Positions 25,375-40,751 of a stretch of 43,140 nucleotides of DNA are shown here, piece by piece. Position 1 is the first letter of the stretch. Every line of letters starts with the position of its first letter. The translations under genes were made by a program, and so were the position numbers. The notes below the pieces were generated by a model, which saw only the letters and a list, made by a program, of their open reading frames with translations, was not told where the DNA came from and made no database searches. The DNA comes from a virus, in the IMG/VR virus record IMGVR_UViG_3300028399_000011, positions 1 through 43,140 of that record; one strand, given 5' to 3'.

Positions 25375-26533
25375 GAGCTGAGCCGACTTGCTCAAGTGAG
25401 GCTAGTCCTGCCTTTACGATTCCATCCAGTGCGCGGCTGAACTCGTCGAGGCTCATTGTGTGCATGACGAGGCGCCATAGGGCCTTCTCGTTGATGGTGT
25501 CGTGGCGGGAAAGGGTCTTGATGAGGATTTGCGTCGCGCGAACCAGCGGACTGCCCGCGATATGGGAGAAGACTTTGTAGAGATTCGCCTCCATCGCGTC
25601 CATAATGCGCAGGGCCTTTGTGAGGTCGGAGGCGGTAATGCGCATGTCGTCCGCGCGGGCAGCGGAAAGAATCATAGCCAGTTTGTGAATGTGAGTTTGC
25701 TTCCTCGCAAGGTAGCCAGTTAGTCGATCGTCGGAAGCAGATTCAATCGTCTGACAGTGTTCCTCATACCACTTGGTGCCCCACTCGTAGGCGTCGTCCG
25801 TCAGCGTGAAAGGGCCTTTCATGTTGGCAATGATGGCGAGGTCTTCGACAAGTTTTTGGCGGAGGGTACTGTCGATTTGCATCTTCCTGCCAGGGTAGGC
25901 TTCGTAGTGACGCTTCTTCTCCCCGTAGACGAATACAGTTCGTGAGACGAACCCGCCGCCAATCGCATACTCAGGGAAGTTCTCGTTTATCCAGCTTGGC
26001 GTAGTCGCGCCGATGAAGTTTATCCAGGGATTGGGGATTTCGATTTCCCCTTCGTAGGATGTATGCCTGCGCCAAGGTCTGGACCTACCGTCCCACAGGT
26101 CCACAAGGACATCTATCATCTCTTTATTCTTCGGGTCTAGGAAGGTGCCTAACTCGCTTGCGATGATGGTAATGGGGGAGTGTTCCTCGCTCTTTCCTCC
26201 AGGCAGCTCCACTACATCGCGGGCGGCAAGGAGGGCCTTCGTGAGCCCTTGCCATGTCGCGCTATGCGGACCGAAGTGGATGCCATCGATTTCGGAAAGG
26301 AGTTCTTCCCCGATTCCGATGGTAGTTGACTTCGCAATTACGCCCGGCGGCGCGACGAAGATTATGAAGAAGTTCGGCTTCCACTTCCAATAGGTCATAT
26401 CTATCCACGTCTTACCCCGCAGCGCGCCGGCGATCGTCGCAATGCCGGAGAAGAAGTGAAAGATATCCGGCGCCTCTAGGTGTTTTGTGTAGTCGAGGTA
26501 AGACAGCAGCCAGTTGTCCAGACTACGCGGCAT
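25256..26533 (-). CDS. DUF3987-like ATPase (putative replicative helicase-type)
   Basis: 425 aa. The N-terminal pattern DIFHFFSGIATIAGALRGK and NFFIIFVAPPGVIAKSTTIG, followed by PITIIASELGTFL and PWINFIGATTPSWIN, matches DUF3987-type P-loop proteins, which sit near primase and helicase genes in phages. The P-loop has Ala in place of the Gly before Lys. It probably acts in replication initiation or DNA unwinding. It overlaps the polymerase fragment upstream by 11 bases, has no clear SD, and overlaps the giant plus-strand gene at its 3' end. Confidence 0.65.
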   Translation of the reverse strand: MPRSLDNWLLSYLDYTKHLEAPDIFHFFSGIATIAGALRGKTWIDMTYWKWKPNFFIIFVAPPGVIAKSTTIGIGEELLSEIDGIHFGPHSATWQGLTKALLAARDVVELPGGKSEEHSPITIIASELGTFLDPKNKEMIDVLVDLWDGRSRPWRRHTSYEGEIEIPNPWINFIGATTPSWINENFPEYAIGGGFVSRTVFVYGEKKRHYEAYPGRKMQIDSTLRQKLVEDLAIIANMKGPFTLTDDAYEWGTKWYEEHCQTIESASDDRLTGYLARKQTHIHKLAMILSAARADDMRITASDLTKALRIMDAMEANLYKVFSHIAGSPLVRATQILIKTLSRHDTINEKALWRLVMHTMSLDEFSRALDGIVKAGLASLEQVGSALNVRSKVRESSDLSAQQAAVIAVLQGTGPRSSSSAAAAS

Positions 26534-27260
26534 GGAGTTCTTTTACTTCGCCCCAGGAGGAATCAGAATAAGCCAAATCAACAGGGATGATGAGTGGGTC
26601 GGGGTAAGGAATTTCTACTTCAATTGTCTTCTTAATTTCGTCAGCATACGAGAGGAGGAAGGTTTCCTTCAGTTGGAAGATAAGGCTGTCGTGGACTTGA
26701 AGGAGGACTTCGATGTCCTTGGGGAAGCGCTCCTCTAGTCGCTCCCAGCCGATGTTGATGGCGATTCCTACGGTGGATTGAGGGATCCATGCTAGGGCGT
26801 CTGTGAAGCAGCTCTCTGGTCGGTCAAGGAATATCCTCCGATAGCCAAATCTATTCTCGACCCGGCGAGCGGAAGCAAGTTGCAGCTGGGTTCTGTCATG
26901 CCATTTGCGAATCCCCGGATGCGCGGCGAACCAGCGGGTCTGGAGTTCCTCCACCTGGGCAACTGGGAGGCCAAGGATCCGCGCAAGAGTGCGTGCGGTT
27001 GCGCCATAGTTCGTGCCGTGACAGAAGTTCTTTGCGAATGTCCGCTCGCGGGAAGTGAAATTATCCCCAAATAAGGCGCGGGCGTTTTCGTTGTGGATGT
27101 CCTTTCCTTCCCGAAGGGCGGCCTTTAGCGGCTCATCGTCGGCTTCCCACACGACTACTTGGAGGTCGGCCCGCTGTAGGTCTGCTTCGCAGATGACGTA
27201 GCCGTCGTCGGGAAGGAATAGCTCCCGTATATTCGGCAACTCGATTGTCTTCGCAACCAT
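26523..27260 (-). CDS. Family A DNA polymerase, C-terminal catalytic fragment
   Basis: 245 aa containing the three polymerase motifs. Motif A is CEADLQRADLQVV (catalytic D27, with Asp at the steric-gate position). Motif B is RTFAKNFCHGTNYG (R73, K77, H81, Y85). Motif C is LLQVHDSLIF (H190, D191). It lacks the exonuclease and thumb, which are encoded by the gene just upstream. The ATG lies two bases after that gene's stop, in another frame, with an AGAGGAAGA SD. The two chains presumably associate to form a complete palm domain (inference). Confidence 0.9.
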   Translation of the reverse strand: MVAKTIELPNIRELFLPDDGYVICEADLQRADLQVVVWEADDEPLKAALREGKDIHNENARALFGDNFTSRERTFAKNFCHGTNYGATARTLARILGLPVAQVEELQTRWFAAHPGIRKWHDRTQLQLASARRVENRFGYRRIFLDRPESCFTDALAWIPQSTVGIAINIGWERLEERFPKDIEVLLQVHDSLIFQLKETFLLSYADEIKKTIEVEIPYPDPLIIPVDLAYSDSSWGEVKELHAA

Positions 27261-27262
27261 GA

Positions 27263-28945
27263 TTATTCTTCCTCTTCGAGCTTGTTTCCCTTTGTGATGT
27301 TTTGTAAGTTGATGCCCATGTTGAAGGCATCTTTAGATGAGGAGAGGCGGAATGTCTCCGTCCCATCTGTTTTTAGCATCGTGCGCACGCGCTTGTCGGA
27401 ATAGATTTTCGCCCGGATGTAGGTTTGTTCGAACTGGCGTAAGCTGGATAGCTCAATCAGGGCGCGCGTTATGGGAAGGAGAATAGGATCCTGCTTGGCA
27501 AGTTGCTGGAGCGCATTCTGGTCGGTCGTTGGCTTCTTGGTCTTTGGGTTGAGGACTTTGCGTAGTTTCATCTCGTCGTAGAAGAGAATCTTCATCTGTG
27601 TGTCGCTGGTGTACCACGGGGCTTTGTAGCGTTTCGTCCCCACGTTTCGGCCAACGATCTTCTCCAGCCAGCGTTCGCGCTTCTCGATTTCAAATTCAAT
27701 GTAGCTTGCAAAGCGCAGGCACCGCGCGTCGTTCCAGCGGATCCCCCTAAGCCAGACGTTGAAGTTGCGCTCATTCTGCCTATGTTGGAAGGCATGAAGG
27801 GGAATCAGCCGCTCTTCGCGAGAGAGGAGCTTCTCCTGCTCAAAGCGCACTTCGTATGTGACACAGCAGTCCTTGCAATTGTAGCGCCAATATTGCTCAT
27901 CAGGGACAGCGGCGTTTTGTTCCTTCGACTCGTCTTTCCAATAGCGGTGGTAGGAGCAGTAAATGCTGGATAGGAAGTCCAGAGCCTTCGGCGTGCCGGG
28001 GAGGAGGAGGTTCTGAGTGATAGAGGTGTCCCAGTCTAGCCGCGGCCGGATGCCCCACCAGTAGGAAAGATATTGCCTGTCGTAGTTGAAGTTCTGTCCA
28101 ATTATGCGCGCATTGGGATGGGTGAGGATGCGGCGAAGTAGTTTGACGATGAGGAGTTCTTCCTCTTCGGAAAAGTATTCTCCTCTATCCCGGTAGAGGA
28201 ATGGGATACAAATCGCCTCATCCGCGCTCCACGAGAAGCCGATGCAAGAGATATACGGCCTAAAGGTCTCGATGTCACACGCGAGCCAAATCTCCTCCTG
28301 TTCGAGGCGGGAGAGGAGTCCAGTTGCCCATTCGACGCAATCCGATGCCGACGGCCGGATGTGGAATTTGTAAGTCGGCTGGGGAATGGAGGGGTGAGAT
28401 AGCTCCGGCCGAATCCGCATCTTTATATCGTGGCGAACCCACTCAATCCACTCCCACTGGCGGAGGACAAGGGCGGGATGGAGAATGGGAATCACCTTGT
28501 ATGGCGTGCCATCGGGACGGCGGTAGATGGACTCTAGCACACTCCCTCGCCACTTTGTGATTCCGGATTCTCCCGTGAGTGCCCACAAAGCGGTGTCCCC
28601 TACAGCGACGATGAGATAGGGATTCGTCTCCCGGATTTCTTCCTTCAGCAGTTCGATGCCGGCTCGGATTGGTTCCTTCGGATACCGGCCGAGGTACTCC
28701 TCTACGCCTTCCTTCTTTGCGGCGGTCTTTGTGAGGAAGAAGTGGGAGATCTTGTTCCCCGGCGGACGGACGTGGCATACGTTCGTAATCCGGGCAGAAG
28801 ATAAGTCAATCCCATTCTCCTGAAAGAGGTCGCGAAGGAGGCGGCCTGATGCTCCCACAAAGGGGATGCCCCGGTGGATTTCATTCTCACCGGGGGCTTC
28901 CCCTACGATGAGGAGCTTATTGGGGCGGGGTCCGGCGCAGATCAT
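27263..28945 (-). CDS. UDG-like domain + 3'-5' exonuclease + N-terminal part of family A DNA polymerase
   Basis: 560 aa. Residues about 8-180 resemble a uracil-DNA glycosylase of the family 4 type: LLIVGEAPGENE, NVCHVRPPGN, ILHPALVLR (H156). The expected CxxC iron-sulphur cysteines are not visible. Residues about 215-370 are a DEDDy exonuclease: CDIET (D224, E226), NFNYD (D289), YNCKD (Y355, D359). Residues 380-555 are the thumb and the palm segment TFRLSSS to NLQNI. The protein stops just before motif A, which lies in the next gene. SPO1-type phages also place a UDG domain on polymerase, as I recall. It starts in an ATGA overlap with dUTPase. Confidence 0.88.
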   Translation of the reverse strand: MICAGPRPNKLLIVGEAPGENEIHRGIPFVGASGRLLRDLFQENGIDLSSARITNVCHVRPPGNKISHFFLTKTAAKKEGVEEYLGRYPKEPIRAGIELLKEEIRETNPYLIVAVGDTALWALTGESGITKWRGSVLESIYRRPDGTPYKVIPILHPALVLRQWEWIEWVRHDIKMRIRPELSHPSIPQPTYKFHIRPSASDCVEWATGLLSRLEQEEIWLACDIETFRPYISCIGFSWSADEAICIPFLYRDRGEYFSEEEELLIVKLLRRILTHPNARIIGQNFNYDRQYLSYWWGIRPRLDWDTSITQNLLLPGTPKALDFLSSIYCSYHRYWKDESKEQNAAVPDEQYWRYNCKDCCVTYEVRFEQEKLLSREERLIPLHAFQHRQNERNFNVWLRGIRWNDARCLRFASYIEFEIEKRERWLEKIVGRNVGTKRYKAPWYTSDTQMKILFYDEMKLRKVLNPKTKKPTTDQNALQQLAKQDPILLPITRALIELSSLRQFEQTYIRAKIYSDKRVRTMLKTDGTETFRLSSSKDAFNMGINLQNITKGNKLEEEE

Positions 28946-29460: not shown

Positions 29461-30759
29461 CTATTCAGCTTTGCCCGTCTTTTTGAGAAGGGCAAGGTTA
29501 TAATACTTCTCGTTCAGTTCGATTCCGGTGGCGAAACACTCCGCGCGACTCGCGGCTGGGAAGATGTTGCCGCTCCCGCAGAAGGGGTCAAGAACCTTGT
29601 CGCCTGGGTAAGCGGAGCGGATGAGGAGGTTGTGAAGTAGGTCTACTGGCTTGTGCGCTGGGTGGTCGGTCTTTGTGGGTTGGGGAATGGAGAGTACATC
29701 CGTGTAGAGGCCGGTGACTTTCTTGCCGCCTCGATAGGCGTACATGATTGCCTCGTAGGTATAGCGAGGGCCGAAGTCGGCATTCGGATATGCGCCCGTG
29801 TTGCCTTTTGCCCAGATAAGGGGGCGCGGCCAGACATCCCAGCCACAGGTCATGAATGCGATTTGGACGTAGCCCCAATGGTTGATGTCGCAGAAGACGT
29901 ATGCGTGGGCCTGGGGCTTGCAAAGGCGGGAAGCTTCTTCCGCAAGGAATTGGATAAGTTCTTCGAACGCCTCGCGGGAATCGTCGTATTCATGTTCATC
30001 CGTGTCAAAGGTGCCCTTCTTATGGATGTCGATTCCATAAGGGGGGTCGGTGAGGAGGATGTCGAACGTGGATGGGGGGAGGGTAGGGAGGATCTCCCGC
30101 ATGTCGCCCAGGCGCAGGTCATGGGAAGATTCAACTTCCTCTAGCTCCGCCCGCCTGGCTGCAATCTCCTCATGCTTCTTCTTCTCGCGGATGAGTTTGA
30201 GTGCTTCCTTCTCGTTCTTCGCGGCGGCGACAAATGGGTCGTCCATGTGCTCGGCGATGACGATTGCAGTAGAGGCTTCCGTTACATCGCGCTGCGTCGC
30301 AGGCCGGCCCTTGTGGATGATTGCGAATTCTTCTGCGGTGTCGGTCTTCCGCCAGGAGTCGCCATGCTGTTCTTTGCGGAGTTTGTGGAGGAGGGCGATG
30401 GCGGTAGTCTTCTCCTGCCAAGTGAGGTCGCGGCGACGAATGTTCTCCTCCAGCTCCGCTTCATACGCGGCAGCGTCGTCGATGTTCGTGATGAAGGTGA
30501 CTGGGACTTTGCCGAGCGGGACTTCGGCCCCGTCGTGGCGGAAGGTCAGGCCGCACTCGTGGAGAAGGCGAATGGCGCGGAGCCGGTTCTCCCCCGCGAC
30601 GAGGATGACAGATTCCTTCCCGTCGCGGACTACGAGTGGGTTAAGAAGCTCGCTTTGGTAGATCGACGCCGCGAGTTCTTCTATGAAGGTTTCGTCGAAT
30701 TGCTTGCGAATTCGCTTGTCGTGCTGAACGACGATTTCGTCTGTTGGAAGAAGCTCCAT
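29461..30759 (-). CDS. ParB-like nuclease domain fused to beta-class DNA methyltransferase
   Basis: 432 aa. The N-terminal ParB/Srx-like domain (about 1-110) has the phosphate-binding AGENRLRA motif (55-62). A helical linker with HTH character follows (110-200). The methyltransferase has DPPYGID (238-244) before the S-adenosylmethionine motif DPFCGSG (391-397), the order of beta-class N6-adenine or N4-cytosine enzymes. It probably methylates phage DNA, perhaps against host restriction; target unknown. The start has SD GGAGGTACT. It follows a terminator-like hairpin. Confidence 0.88.
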   Translation of the reverse strand: MELLPTDEIVVQHDKRIRKQFDETFIEELAASIYQSELLNPLVVRDGKESVILVAGENRLRAIRLLHECGLTFRHDGAEVPLGKVPVTFITNIDDAAAYEAELEENIRRRDLTWQEKTTAIALLHKLRKEQHGDSWRKTDTAEEFAIIHKGRPATQRDVTEASTAIVIAEHMDDPFVAAAKNEKEALKLIREKKKHEEIAARRAELEEVESSHDLRLGDMREILPTLPPSTFDILLTDPPYGIDIHKKGTFDTDEHEYDDSREAFEELIQFLAEEASRLCKPQAHAYVFCDINHWGYVQIAFMTCGWDVWPRPLIWAKGNTGAYPNADFGPRYTYEAIMYAYRGGKKVTGLYTDVLSIPQPTKTDHPAHKPVDLLHNLLIRSAYPGDKVLDPFCGSGNIFPAASRAECFATGIELNEKYYNLALLKKTGKAE

Positions 30760-37245: not shown

Positions 37246-37458
37246 TCAGTCCTCTTCTGTCTTTATACGCTTGTTCCACAGGCGTGTTGCCTCTGTCCGC
37301 CAGTCCGCTACATCCGTGCGGATTGCTGGTCCTTGAGCTCCGCACTTATTGCATAGCGTGAATCCATACTCATCATCATAGGTAAACTCAGCTATGGGAG
37401 CCAGATCCAGGCTTCCGCAAAATGGGCAAGGGTTGACTTTGACTCGTTCTGTTGGCAT
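37246..37458 (-). CDS. Lar-like restriction-alleviation zinc-ribbon protein
   Basis: 70 aa starting MPTERVKVNPCPFCGS at 37458, after AAGGAGGACTAACC. CPFCGS and CNKCGAQGP with a downstream Trp-Asn-x-Arg pattern (LWNKR) match the Lar family, which modifies host restriction. An in-frame upstream start at 37548 (MKVIIDDRLGDWRIF) also has an SD (AGGAGATCAGTC), giving a possible 100-residue form. It ends EED at the SD-stop junction. The leader contains a 68-nt hairpin. Confidence 0.65.
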   Translation of the reverse strand: MPTERVKVNPCPFCGSLDLAPIAEFTYDDEYGFTLCNKCGAQGPAIRTDVADWRTEATRLWNKRIKTEED

Positions 37459-37568
37459 GGTTAGTCCTCCTTCTGTTCTGCGCGCGGCACCAATCCCCAA
37501 TGAGAATATTCTCCAATCTCCCAACCTGTCGTCAATGATCACTTTCATGACTGATCTCCTAAATTGGC

Positions 37569-40056: not shown

Positions 40057-40566
40057 CTACTGTGCCGCACTCGCTGCCCCGTGCGGCTTGGGGCGGATTA
40101 TGTAGTTTGTCTGTAGGCAGACAGCGTTGTATGTCCTTGCCGTGGGGTAGGCACACTCGCGTAGCTTGTTGAGTGTAAGTACTTCACCTTTCCACAGGGG
40201 CGGGACGTGGACGGGAATTTCCGTCACTAGGGCTGCCCGCCGTGCGAGGCCCAAGGAAATGGGGTCGCTGGTGATGATGTGTCTGCCCCAGACGTCCTCG
40301 ATTCTGGGGGACGCTGTGGTTGGGATGTATTCCTCACCAATAAGGTCGACTTCGCGGAGGTAGTCCGTAAACGCGGGGTGCTGGGAGACGACGATCTTCG
40401 GCGCCTCGAAGCGAGCCCGCGTGAGAATTTTCCTCCCGATGCCTGGGAGGGTGAGGGCATCTAGTTCGTCCATGGCGAGGACGTCGGCTACGGAATGCCT
40501 CGACGCCAGACCGTGGTCGCGTAGGGCGCGGGCGATGGCGCGAGTGTAGTAGAATGGGTCGCTCAT
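40057..40566 (-). CDS. HhH domain fused to a Csx16-like domain (anti-CRISPR candidate)
   Basis: 169 aa from the start at 40566 (GGAGGTCCAAGAA upstream); the longer frame is an artefact. Residues 30-50 (LAMDELDALTLPGIGRKIL) form a helix-hairpin-helix. Residues 57-150 resemble the CRISPR-associated Csx16 (VVA1548) family: KIVVSQHPAFTDYLRE, GRHIITSDPISLGLA, VTEIPVHVPPLWKGEVLTLN. Csx16 proteins occur in type III CRISPR loci and have been proposed as ring nucleases. A phage copy could be an anti-CRISPR ring nuclease; this is an inference to test. Confidence 0.5.
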   Translation of the reverse strand: MSDPFYYTRAIARALRDHGLASRHSVADVLAMDELDALTLPGIGRKILTRARFEAPKIVVSQHPAFTDYLREVDLIGEEYIPTTASPRIEDVWGRHIITSDPISLGLARRAALVTEIPVHVPPLWKGEVLTLNKLRECAYPTARTYNAVCLQTNYIIRPKPHGAASAAQ

Positions 40567-40751
40567 TTCTTGGACCTCCGTAGGCGCGGGGTGGGCAGGA
40601 TGCCGCGGCTGTGAAGGTCGTCGATGGTTTTGCGAAGGTAAGCATCGACGTCCTTCTTGGTGCCGAGGCGCCAGCCGGTTAGGCCAATGGCGGGGATTTC
40701 GTAATTCCACCCGCCGAGGGACTTTGAGGTGATGCGGTATTCTTTTCGCAT
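40563..40751 (-). CDS. Hypothetical protein, 62 aa
   Basis: MRKEYRITSKSLGGWNYEIP, mostly beta and loop with a basic C-terminus (RLRRSKK). It ends in ATGA overlap with the HhH/Csx16-like gene. No clear SD; the start could be read by coupling from the previous gene. No family is recognised. Confidence 0.6.
   Translation of the reverse strand: MRKEYRITSKSLGGWNYEIPAIGLTGWRLGTKKDVDAYLRKTIDDLHSRGILPTPRLRRSKK

Follow-up and report, generated by a model that had tools for sequence, protein, structure and literature searches.

A divergent Csx16 domain fused to an HhH-like region in a tailed phage marks a probable early counter-defence gene

We analyzed a 43,140-nucleotide stretch of viral DNA (IMG/VR record IMGVR_UViG_3300028399_000011, hereafter the window) and found that an open reading frame on the minus strand, at positions 40057 to 40566, encodes a protein of 169 amino acids (plus stop codon) in which a region resembling a DNA-binding-type helix-hairpin-helix (HhH) is followed by a Csx16 domain. 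Judged by profile and pairwise comparisons, the Csx16 homology is secure, and the window protein is a divergent homologue distinct from canonical Csx16. The same architecture was found in a second protein, L152; by alignment of the two, the HhH-Csx16 fusion is real and occurs on two separate phage contigs. The gene is probably an early counter-defence gene.

The reading frame starts with ATG and ends with TAG. A perfect ribosome-binding site, GGAGG, was located 8 nt upstream of the ATG (40575 to 40579, minus strand), and the stop codon of a small upstream gene of 62 amino acids (40563 to 40751, minus strand) overlaps the start of the fusion gene in the sequence ATGA. Because of the perfect GGAGG and the ATGA overlap with the preceding gene, the frame was considered genuine and the two genes probably co-transcribed; the Csx16 profile matches and the orthologous fusion in L152 also support the frame. 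The 62-amino-acid gene had no match in Pfam and PHROG profile searches.

The window represents a tailed phage of roughly 43 kb, with terminase, portal and capsid genes on the plus strand and genes for DNA polymerase A, a UvrD-type helicase, a dUTPase, a Sak4-like protein and a methylase on the minus strand. By terminase, the nearest isolates were Microcystis phage Mel-JY34 (39%) and Vibrio phage VS-ABTNL-3 (37%). The fusion gene sits in a leftward array of small genes adjoining the replication module, which agrees with the early-type phage region named in the original prediction. In the same array, about 2.6 kb from the fusion gene, lies a Lar-like (restriction alleviation) zinc-ribbon gene (37246 to 37470, minus strand; PF14354, E 1.1e-8, 35.6 bits, cut-off 28.6), the ATG of which is probably at 37458. 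No Cas10 was found in the window, which led us to reject a phage-borne type III CRISPR locus; the absence of such a locus beside the Csx16 domain is expected for a viral copy in a phage genome. Neither tRNA genes nor CRISPR-like tandem arrays were found when sought in the window, so it offers no clue to the host. Elsewhere on the minus strand, a family A DNA polymerase was divided between two adjoining frames (26523 to 28945) that matched consecutive parts of the PHROG polymerase profile (480-990 and 996-1236), the upstream one starting with a uracil-DNA glycosylase-superfamily domain; the polymerase of a related Vibrio phage is likewise annotated in pieces. A frame at 29461 to 30759 (minus strand) joins a ParB N-terminal domain to an N6/N4 DNA methylase.

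The divergent Csx16 domain covers residues 57 to 147 (40126 to 40398, minus strand), as defined by PF09652, PDLC01635, our own HMMs and the order of the predicted structural elements. The motifs from which Csx16 had been recognized in the original prediction are present, namely H63-P, GRHIITSDPISLGLARR (residues 94 to 110) and IPVHVPPLWKGEVLTL (residues 117 to 132). Pfam Cas_VVA1548 (PF09652, Csx16) matched residues 59 to 139 with E 4.6e-5 and 24.0 bits at the protein level, borderline against the curated cut-off of 25, and scored 25.2 bits, above the cut-off, in the genome search. The PADLOC Csx16 model PDLC01635 gave E 3.6e-6. NCBIfam and PHROG profile searches of the window protein matched nothing, including the NCBIfam Csx16 profile TIGR02620.

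When the window protein alone was used, a peptide-pattern scan of viral and genome contigs found no close relatives, and tblastn in phages yielded insignificant matches only. Two Deinococcota plasmid Csx16 proteins, which were marginal tblastn matches of the query, seeded the scans that gathered viral Csx16 proteins. Our first HMM was built from 19 domains without the query and the second from 76 other Csx16 domains. Among 12,641 open reading frames of the window and related phages, the window protein was the sole significant match of the 19-domain HMM (E 1.3e-10), with 42.3 bits compared to 11.5 for the next frame and 6.9 for the best of 5,000 shuffles, and the sole match of the 76-domain HMM (E 2.6e-12). 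Its blastp alignment with the viral Csx16 L127 showed 42% identity across 83 residues, and pairwise identity to several viral Csx16 proteins (L127, L152, L153 and others) was 40-45% over the aligned part. The Csx16 reading therefore holds as homology, whereas the high divergence of the window copy had been missed. Pseudanabaena phage Pan4 was checked and has no Csx16. A profile of the alignment matched designed ankyrin repeats in the PDB; this match was rejected as a motif artefact of 'PLHLAAEA', since that stretch is missing from the window protein and the fold predicted is alpha/beta.

The HhH region spans residues 6 to 53 (40408 to 40551, minus strand). Pfam HHH_5 (PF14520) matched residues 10 to 50 below its threshold (E 0.0018, 19.1 bits, cut-off 27). 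AlphaFold2 predicted helices at residues 6-17, 26-31, 34-38 and 44-53, and the hairpin LTLPGIGRK (residues 38 to 46) places LPGIGRK between the last two of them; the counterpart in L152 is LPGVGRK. The HhH half alone was unmatched in PDB sequences and in phages. L152 came to light when the sequences preceding the domain in viral Csx16 proteins were screened for the HhH hairpin. It is carried by a 19.6-kb phage contig (IMGVR_UViG_3300026519_000082), on which some of the neighboring frames, read by eye from the sequence, resemble a lysis amidase and tail proteins. L152 and the window protein are 45% identical over 113 amino acids that span both domains. The alignment score was 94 for the N-terminal half and 131 for the Csx16 half, against maxima of 50 and 63, respectively, in 5,000 shuffles each. 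In L152, the N-terminus gave weak HhH matches at the position where the window protein has its own, and the Csx16 half is of the canonical type (Pfam E 6.5e-18). Since L152 shares the architecture, a misassembled or chimeric frame was rejected, and the fusion inferred from the window alone was borne out. A final scan for more HhH-Csx16 fusions yielded none beyond these two. No paper describing the fusion was found in the open-access literature searched, as originally supposed, but the fusion is not unique.

In the stretch from 1080 to 1320 of its contig, L152 carries, near the end of the Csx16 part, a 20-bp tandem duplication that apparently shifts the frame into the following zinc-ribbon gene. 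In four other viral frames (L141, 5626 to 6270; L176, 5779 to 6270; L162, 3072 to 3608; L130, 5533 to 6414), sequence resembling, on reading, an HNH domain or a zinc ribbon precedes Csx16; each may represent a further N-terminal fusion, or else a neighboring gene read through into Csx16.

Residue conservation was assessed by column counts against the 76 other Csx16 domains. The window protein keeps His63 (76/76; codon at 40378 to 40380, minus strand), the invariant histidine of the T-R-H motif, together with Pro102 (76/76), Gly127 (75/76) and Leu130 (73/76). Six near-invariant positions are altered. Arg62 is replaced by Gln (Arg in 73 of 76 members, Gln in three) and the second histidine, His86, by Ser (His in 68, Ser in two). 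In the GxLP loop, Gly99 is replaced by Thr (Gly in 76/76) and Leu101 by Asp (Leu in 74/76), and in RGxEL, Arg126 is replaced by Lys (Arg in 71/76) and Glu129 by Val (Glu or Asp in 75/76). The last four replacements are essentially private to the window protein, and a two-residue insertion in its LP..LA loop is shared by no other member. In published Csx16 models, the conserved residues group at the modeled nucleotide site (PMC12409355), and for this reason the altered positions probably reshape the nucleotide site of the window protein. Neither residue roles for Csx16 nor a mutational study was found in the literature searched.

The AlphaFold2 model of the window protein had a modest overall pLDDT of 75, with most of the Csx16 part at 84-93, compared to 95 for the canonical viral Csx16 L127. 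The predicted strands and helices follow the same order as in L127, which may reflect a CARF-like alpha/beta fold. Foldseek gave neither the window protein nor the L127 model a significant match to any solved structure in the PDB, and a Foldseek search of viral models was likewise without a significant match; the putative fold is therefore read from the sequence and the predicted secondary structure.

Across the union of our scans, Csx16 was present on 80 distinct IMG/VR contigs (among L138 to L209, L023 to L028 and L123 to L136), a count of contigs rather than of confirmed phages, since IMG/VR contigs are uncultivated and some carry no detected hallmarks. Cas10 was searched for in 50 of these contigs and found in none (0/50), while control genomes gave Cas10; at least 19 of the 50 carried a terminase. 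The lack of Cas10 and the presence of terminases fit a role in viruses better than one in CRISPR loci. None of the PHROGs searched captured viral Csx16, and Csx16 has been published in 2 of 28,114 phage genomes (PMC12409355). Among Deinococcota, 2 of 111 genomes carried Csx16, a frequency uninformative for the window phage. Tandem Csx16 domains in one protein, the second copy degenerate, were observed in Meiothermus luteus (L022) and on the A. silvanus plasmid pMESIL02 (L017); a further Csx16 on pMESIL02 forms the N-terminus of a 671-amino-acid protein directly 3' of an ankyrin-repeat gene.

The window protein was compared with known systems. With Csx16 of type III CRISPR loci (PF09652/TIGR02620), it shares homology over about 85 residues, the invariant histidine and the order of strands and helices; it differs in being phage-borne without Cas10, fused to HhH, altered at near-invariant residues, extended by the two-residue insertion and unrecognized by TIGR02620. 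A phage location is common to the window protein and the other viral Csx16 proteins, both those of the two published phage genomes and those of the 80 contigs. Except for L152, however, the other viral proteins examined had no detectable HhH; all of them retain the GxLP motif and most retain the second histidine and RGxEL, which the window copy has lost. L152 has the same two domains and differs by its canonical Csx16 half and an additional zinc-ribbon tail. The viral ring nucleases AcrIII-1 (Crn2) and AcrIII-2 (Crn5) serve, or have been put forward, as type III anti-CRISPRs; like the window protein, they are encoded by phages and have relatives among the host domains that handle cA4, but they belong to different families. 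Phage and plasmid homologues of Crn4 bear an N-terminal extension of 60-80 amino acids (PMC12830947) and thus resemble the window protein in that a protein of ring-nuclease type, encoded by a mobile element, is extended at its N-terminus, although the fold is unrelated.

Csx16 had earlier been described to us as a proposed ring nuclease; the tested Csx16 is now biochemically confirmed as one, specific for cA4, with cA6 left uncleaved (PMC12409355), so cA6, initially suggested beside cA4 as a test substrate, is a poor discriminator. In the reading we prefer, which has about an even chance of being correct, the window gene is an accessory phage gene. During infection, Cas10 of a host type III CRISPR system would make the alarm signal cA4, the divergent Csx16 domain would bind it and remove it by cleavage, and the cA4-activated effectors would stay off, which would protect the phage. 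The HhH region would most likely aid dimerization or place the enzyme near nucleic acid; HhH motifs make protein contacts besides binding DNA. Phage counter-defence was considered the best reading because the 50 Csx16 contigs tested were without Cas10 and at least 19 of them carried a terminase, and it is further supported by the Csx16 homology, the L152 fusion, the tailed-phage window without Cas10, the nearby Lar-like gene and the retention of His63, Pro102 and Gly127. Neither the fusion gene nor any Csx16 was found in 50 records of phages related to this one through capsid or terminase, a pattern that an accessory anti-defence gene would be expected to show. The six altered positions, the unique insertion and the TIGR02620 miss weigh against this reading, as does the dispute over natively expressed AcrIII-1 as an anti-CRISPR, as far as the exchange cited in PMC12751052 conveys it. 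Cleavage of cA4 by the window protein is plausible, but we placed it well below certainty because several near-invariant residues are gone. The anti-type-III role put forward in the original prediction therefore stays the leading idea, with ring-nuclease activity less certain than the motifs had suggested.

Sponges that soak up immune nucleotides are known from phages; here, an altered site could hold cA4 or some other cyclic nucleotide uncleaved and so counter type III or CBASS-type signaling by sequestration. The fold core and His63 are retained while several conserved positions are replaced, which would suit such binding, and the ring nuclease Csx15 is reported to be effective as a cA4 sponge while cleaving very slowly (PMC13148439). 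Against this, binding by the window protein is itself a prediction, and the type III messenger has been argued to be so abundant that sponging may be fruitless (PMC13148439); we consider sequestration rather unlikely, though a serious rival. A similar probability, and likewise the rank of a serious rival, was given to a Csx16 domain that has left signal nucleotides altogether for another early-phage task, such as binding nucleic acid or a host protein through the HhH region. The long branch, the loss of several near-invariant residues, the HhH-type hairpin and the surrounding array of small genes of unknown function would all be compatible with such a change, but the window protein still has His63 and the fold elements, and in L152, which is built from the same two domains, the Csx16 half has stayed canonical, which suggests that the fusion arose around a functional-looking Csx16. 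It is very improbable that the fusion is decaying toward loss with no current function: conserved positions have diverged and related phages are without the gene, but the frame is intact, the ribosome site is perfect, translation appears coupled, and the two halves of the protein are conserved to a similar degree when compared with L152. A chance resemblance of motifs, for which only a Pfam score 1 bit under the cut-off speaks, has a negligible probability and was refuted by the 19- and 76-domain HMMs and the orthologous L152 fusion, in line with the shuffles and the 40-45% pairwise matches to several viral Csx16 proteins.

Phage Csx16 and viral ring nucleases are known kinds, the former from the two published phage genomes; as far as the literature was searched, what is new is the joining of HhH to Csx16, the finding of this architecture a second time, and the remodeled site. 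The viral proteins that attack, or have been suggested to attack, the cA4 signal of type III CRISPR are, to our knowledge, few. It is conceivable, though we think it improbable, that HhH-Csx16 proteins are a viral class of their own among type III counter-defence proteins, in which HhH targets or assembles Csx16, with the pocket here shifted to sequestration or to another cyclic nucleotide, as part of a broad and largely unrecognized viral Csx16 repertoire. The occurrence of Csx16 on at least 80 viral contigs, with Cas10 in 0 of 50, suggests a common viral tool beyond a host off-switch, and the pair of HhH fusions, canonical in L152 and remodeled in the window, offers a natural comparison for the role of HhH and for the residues that separate cleavage from binding.
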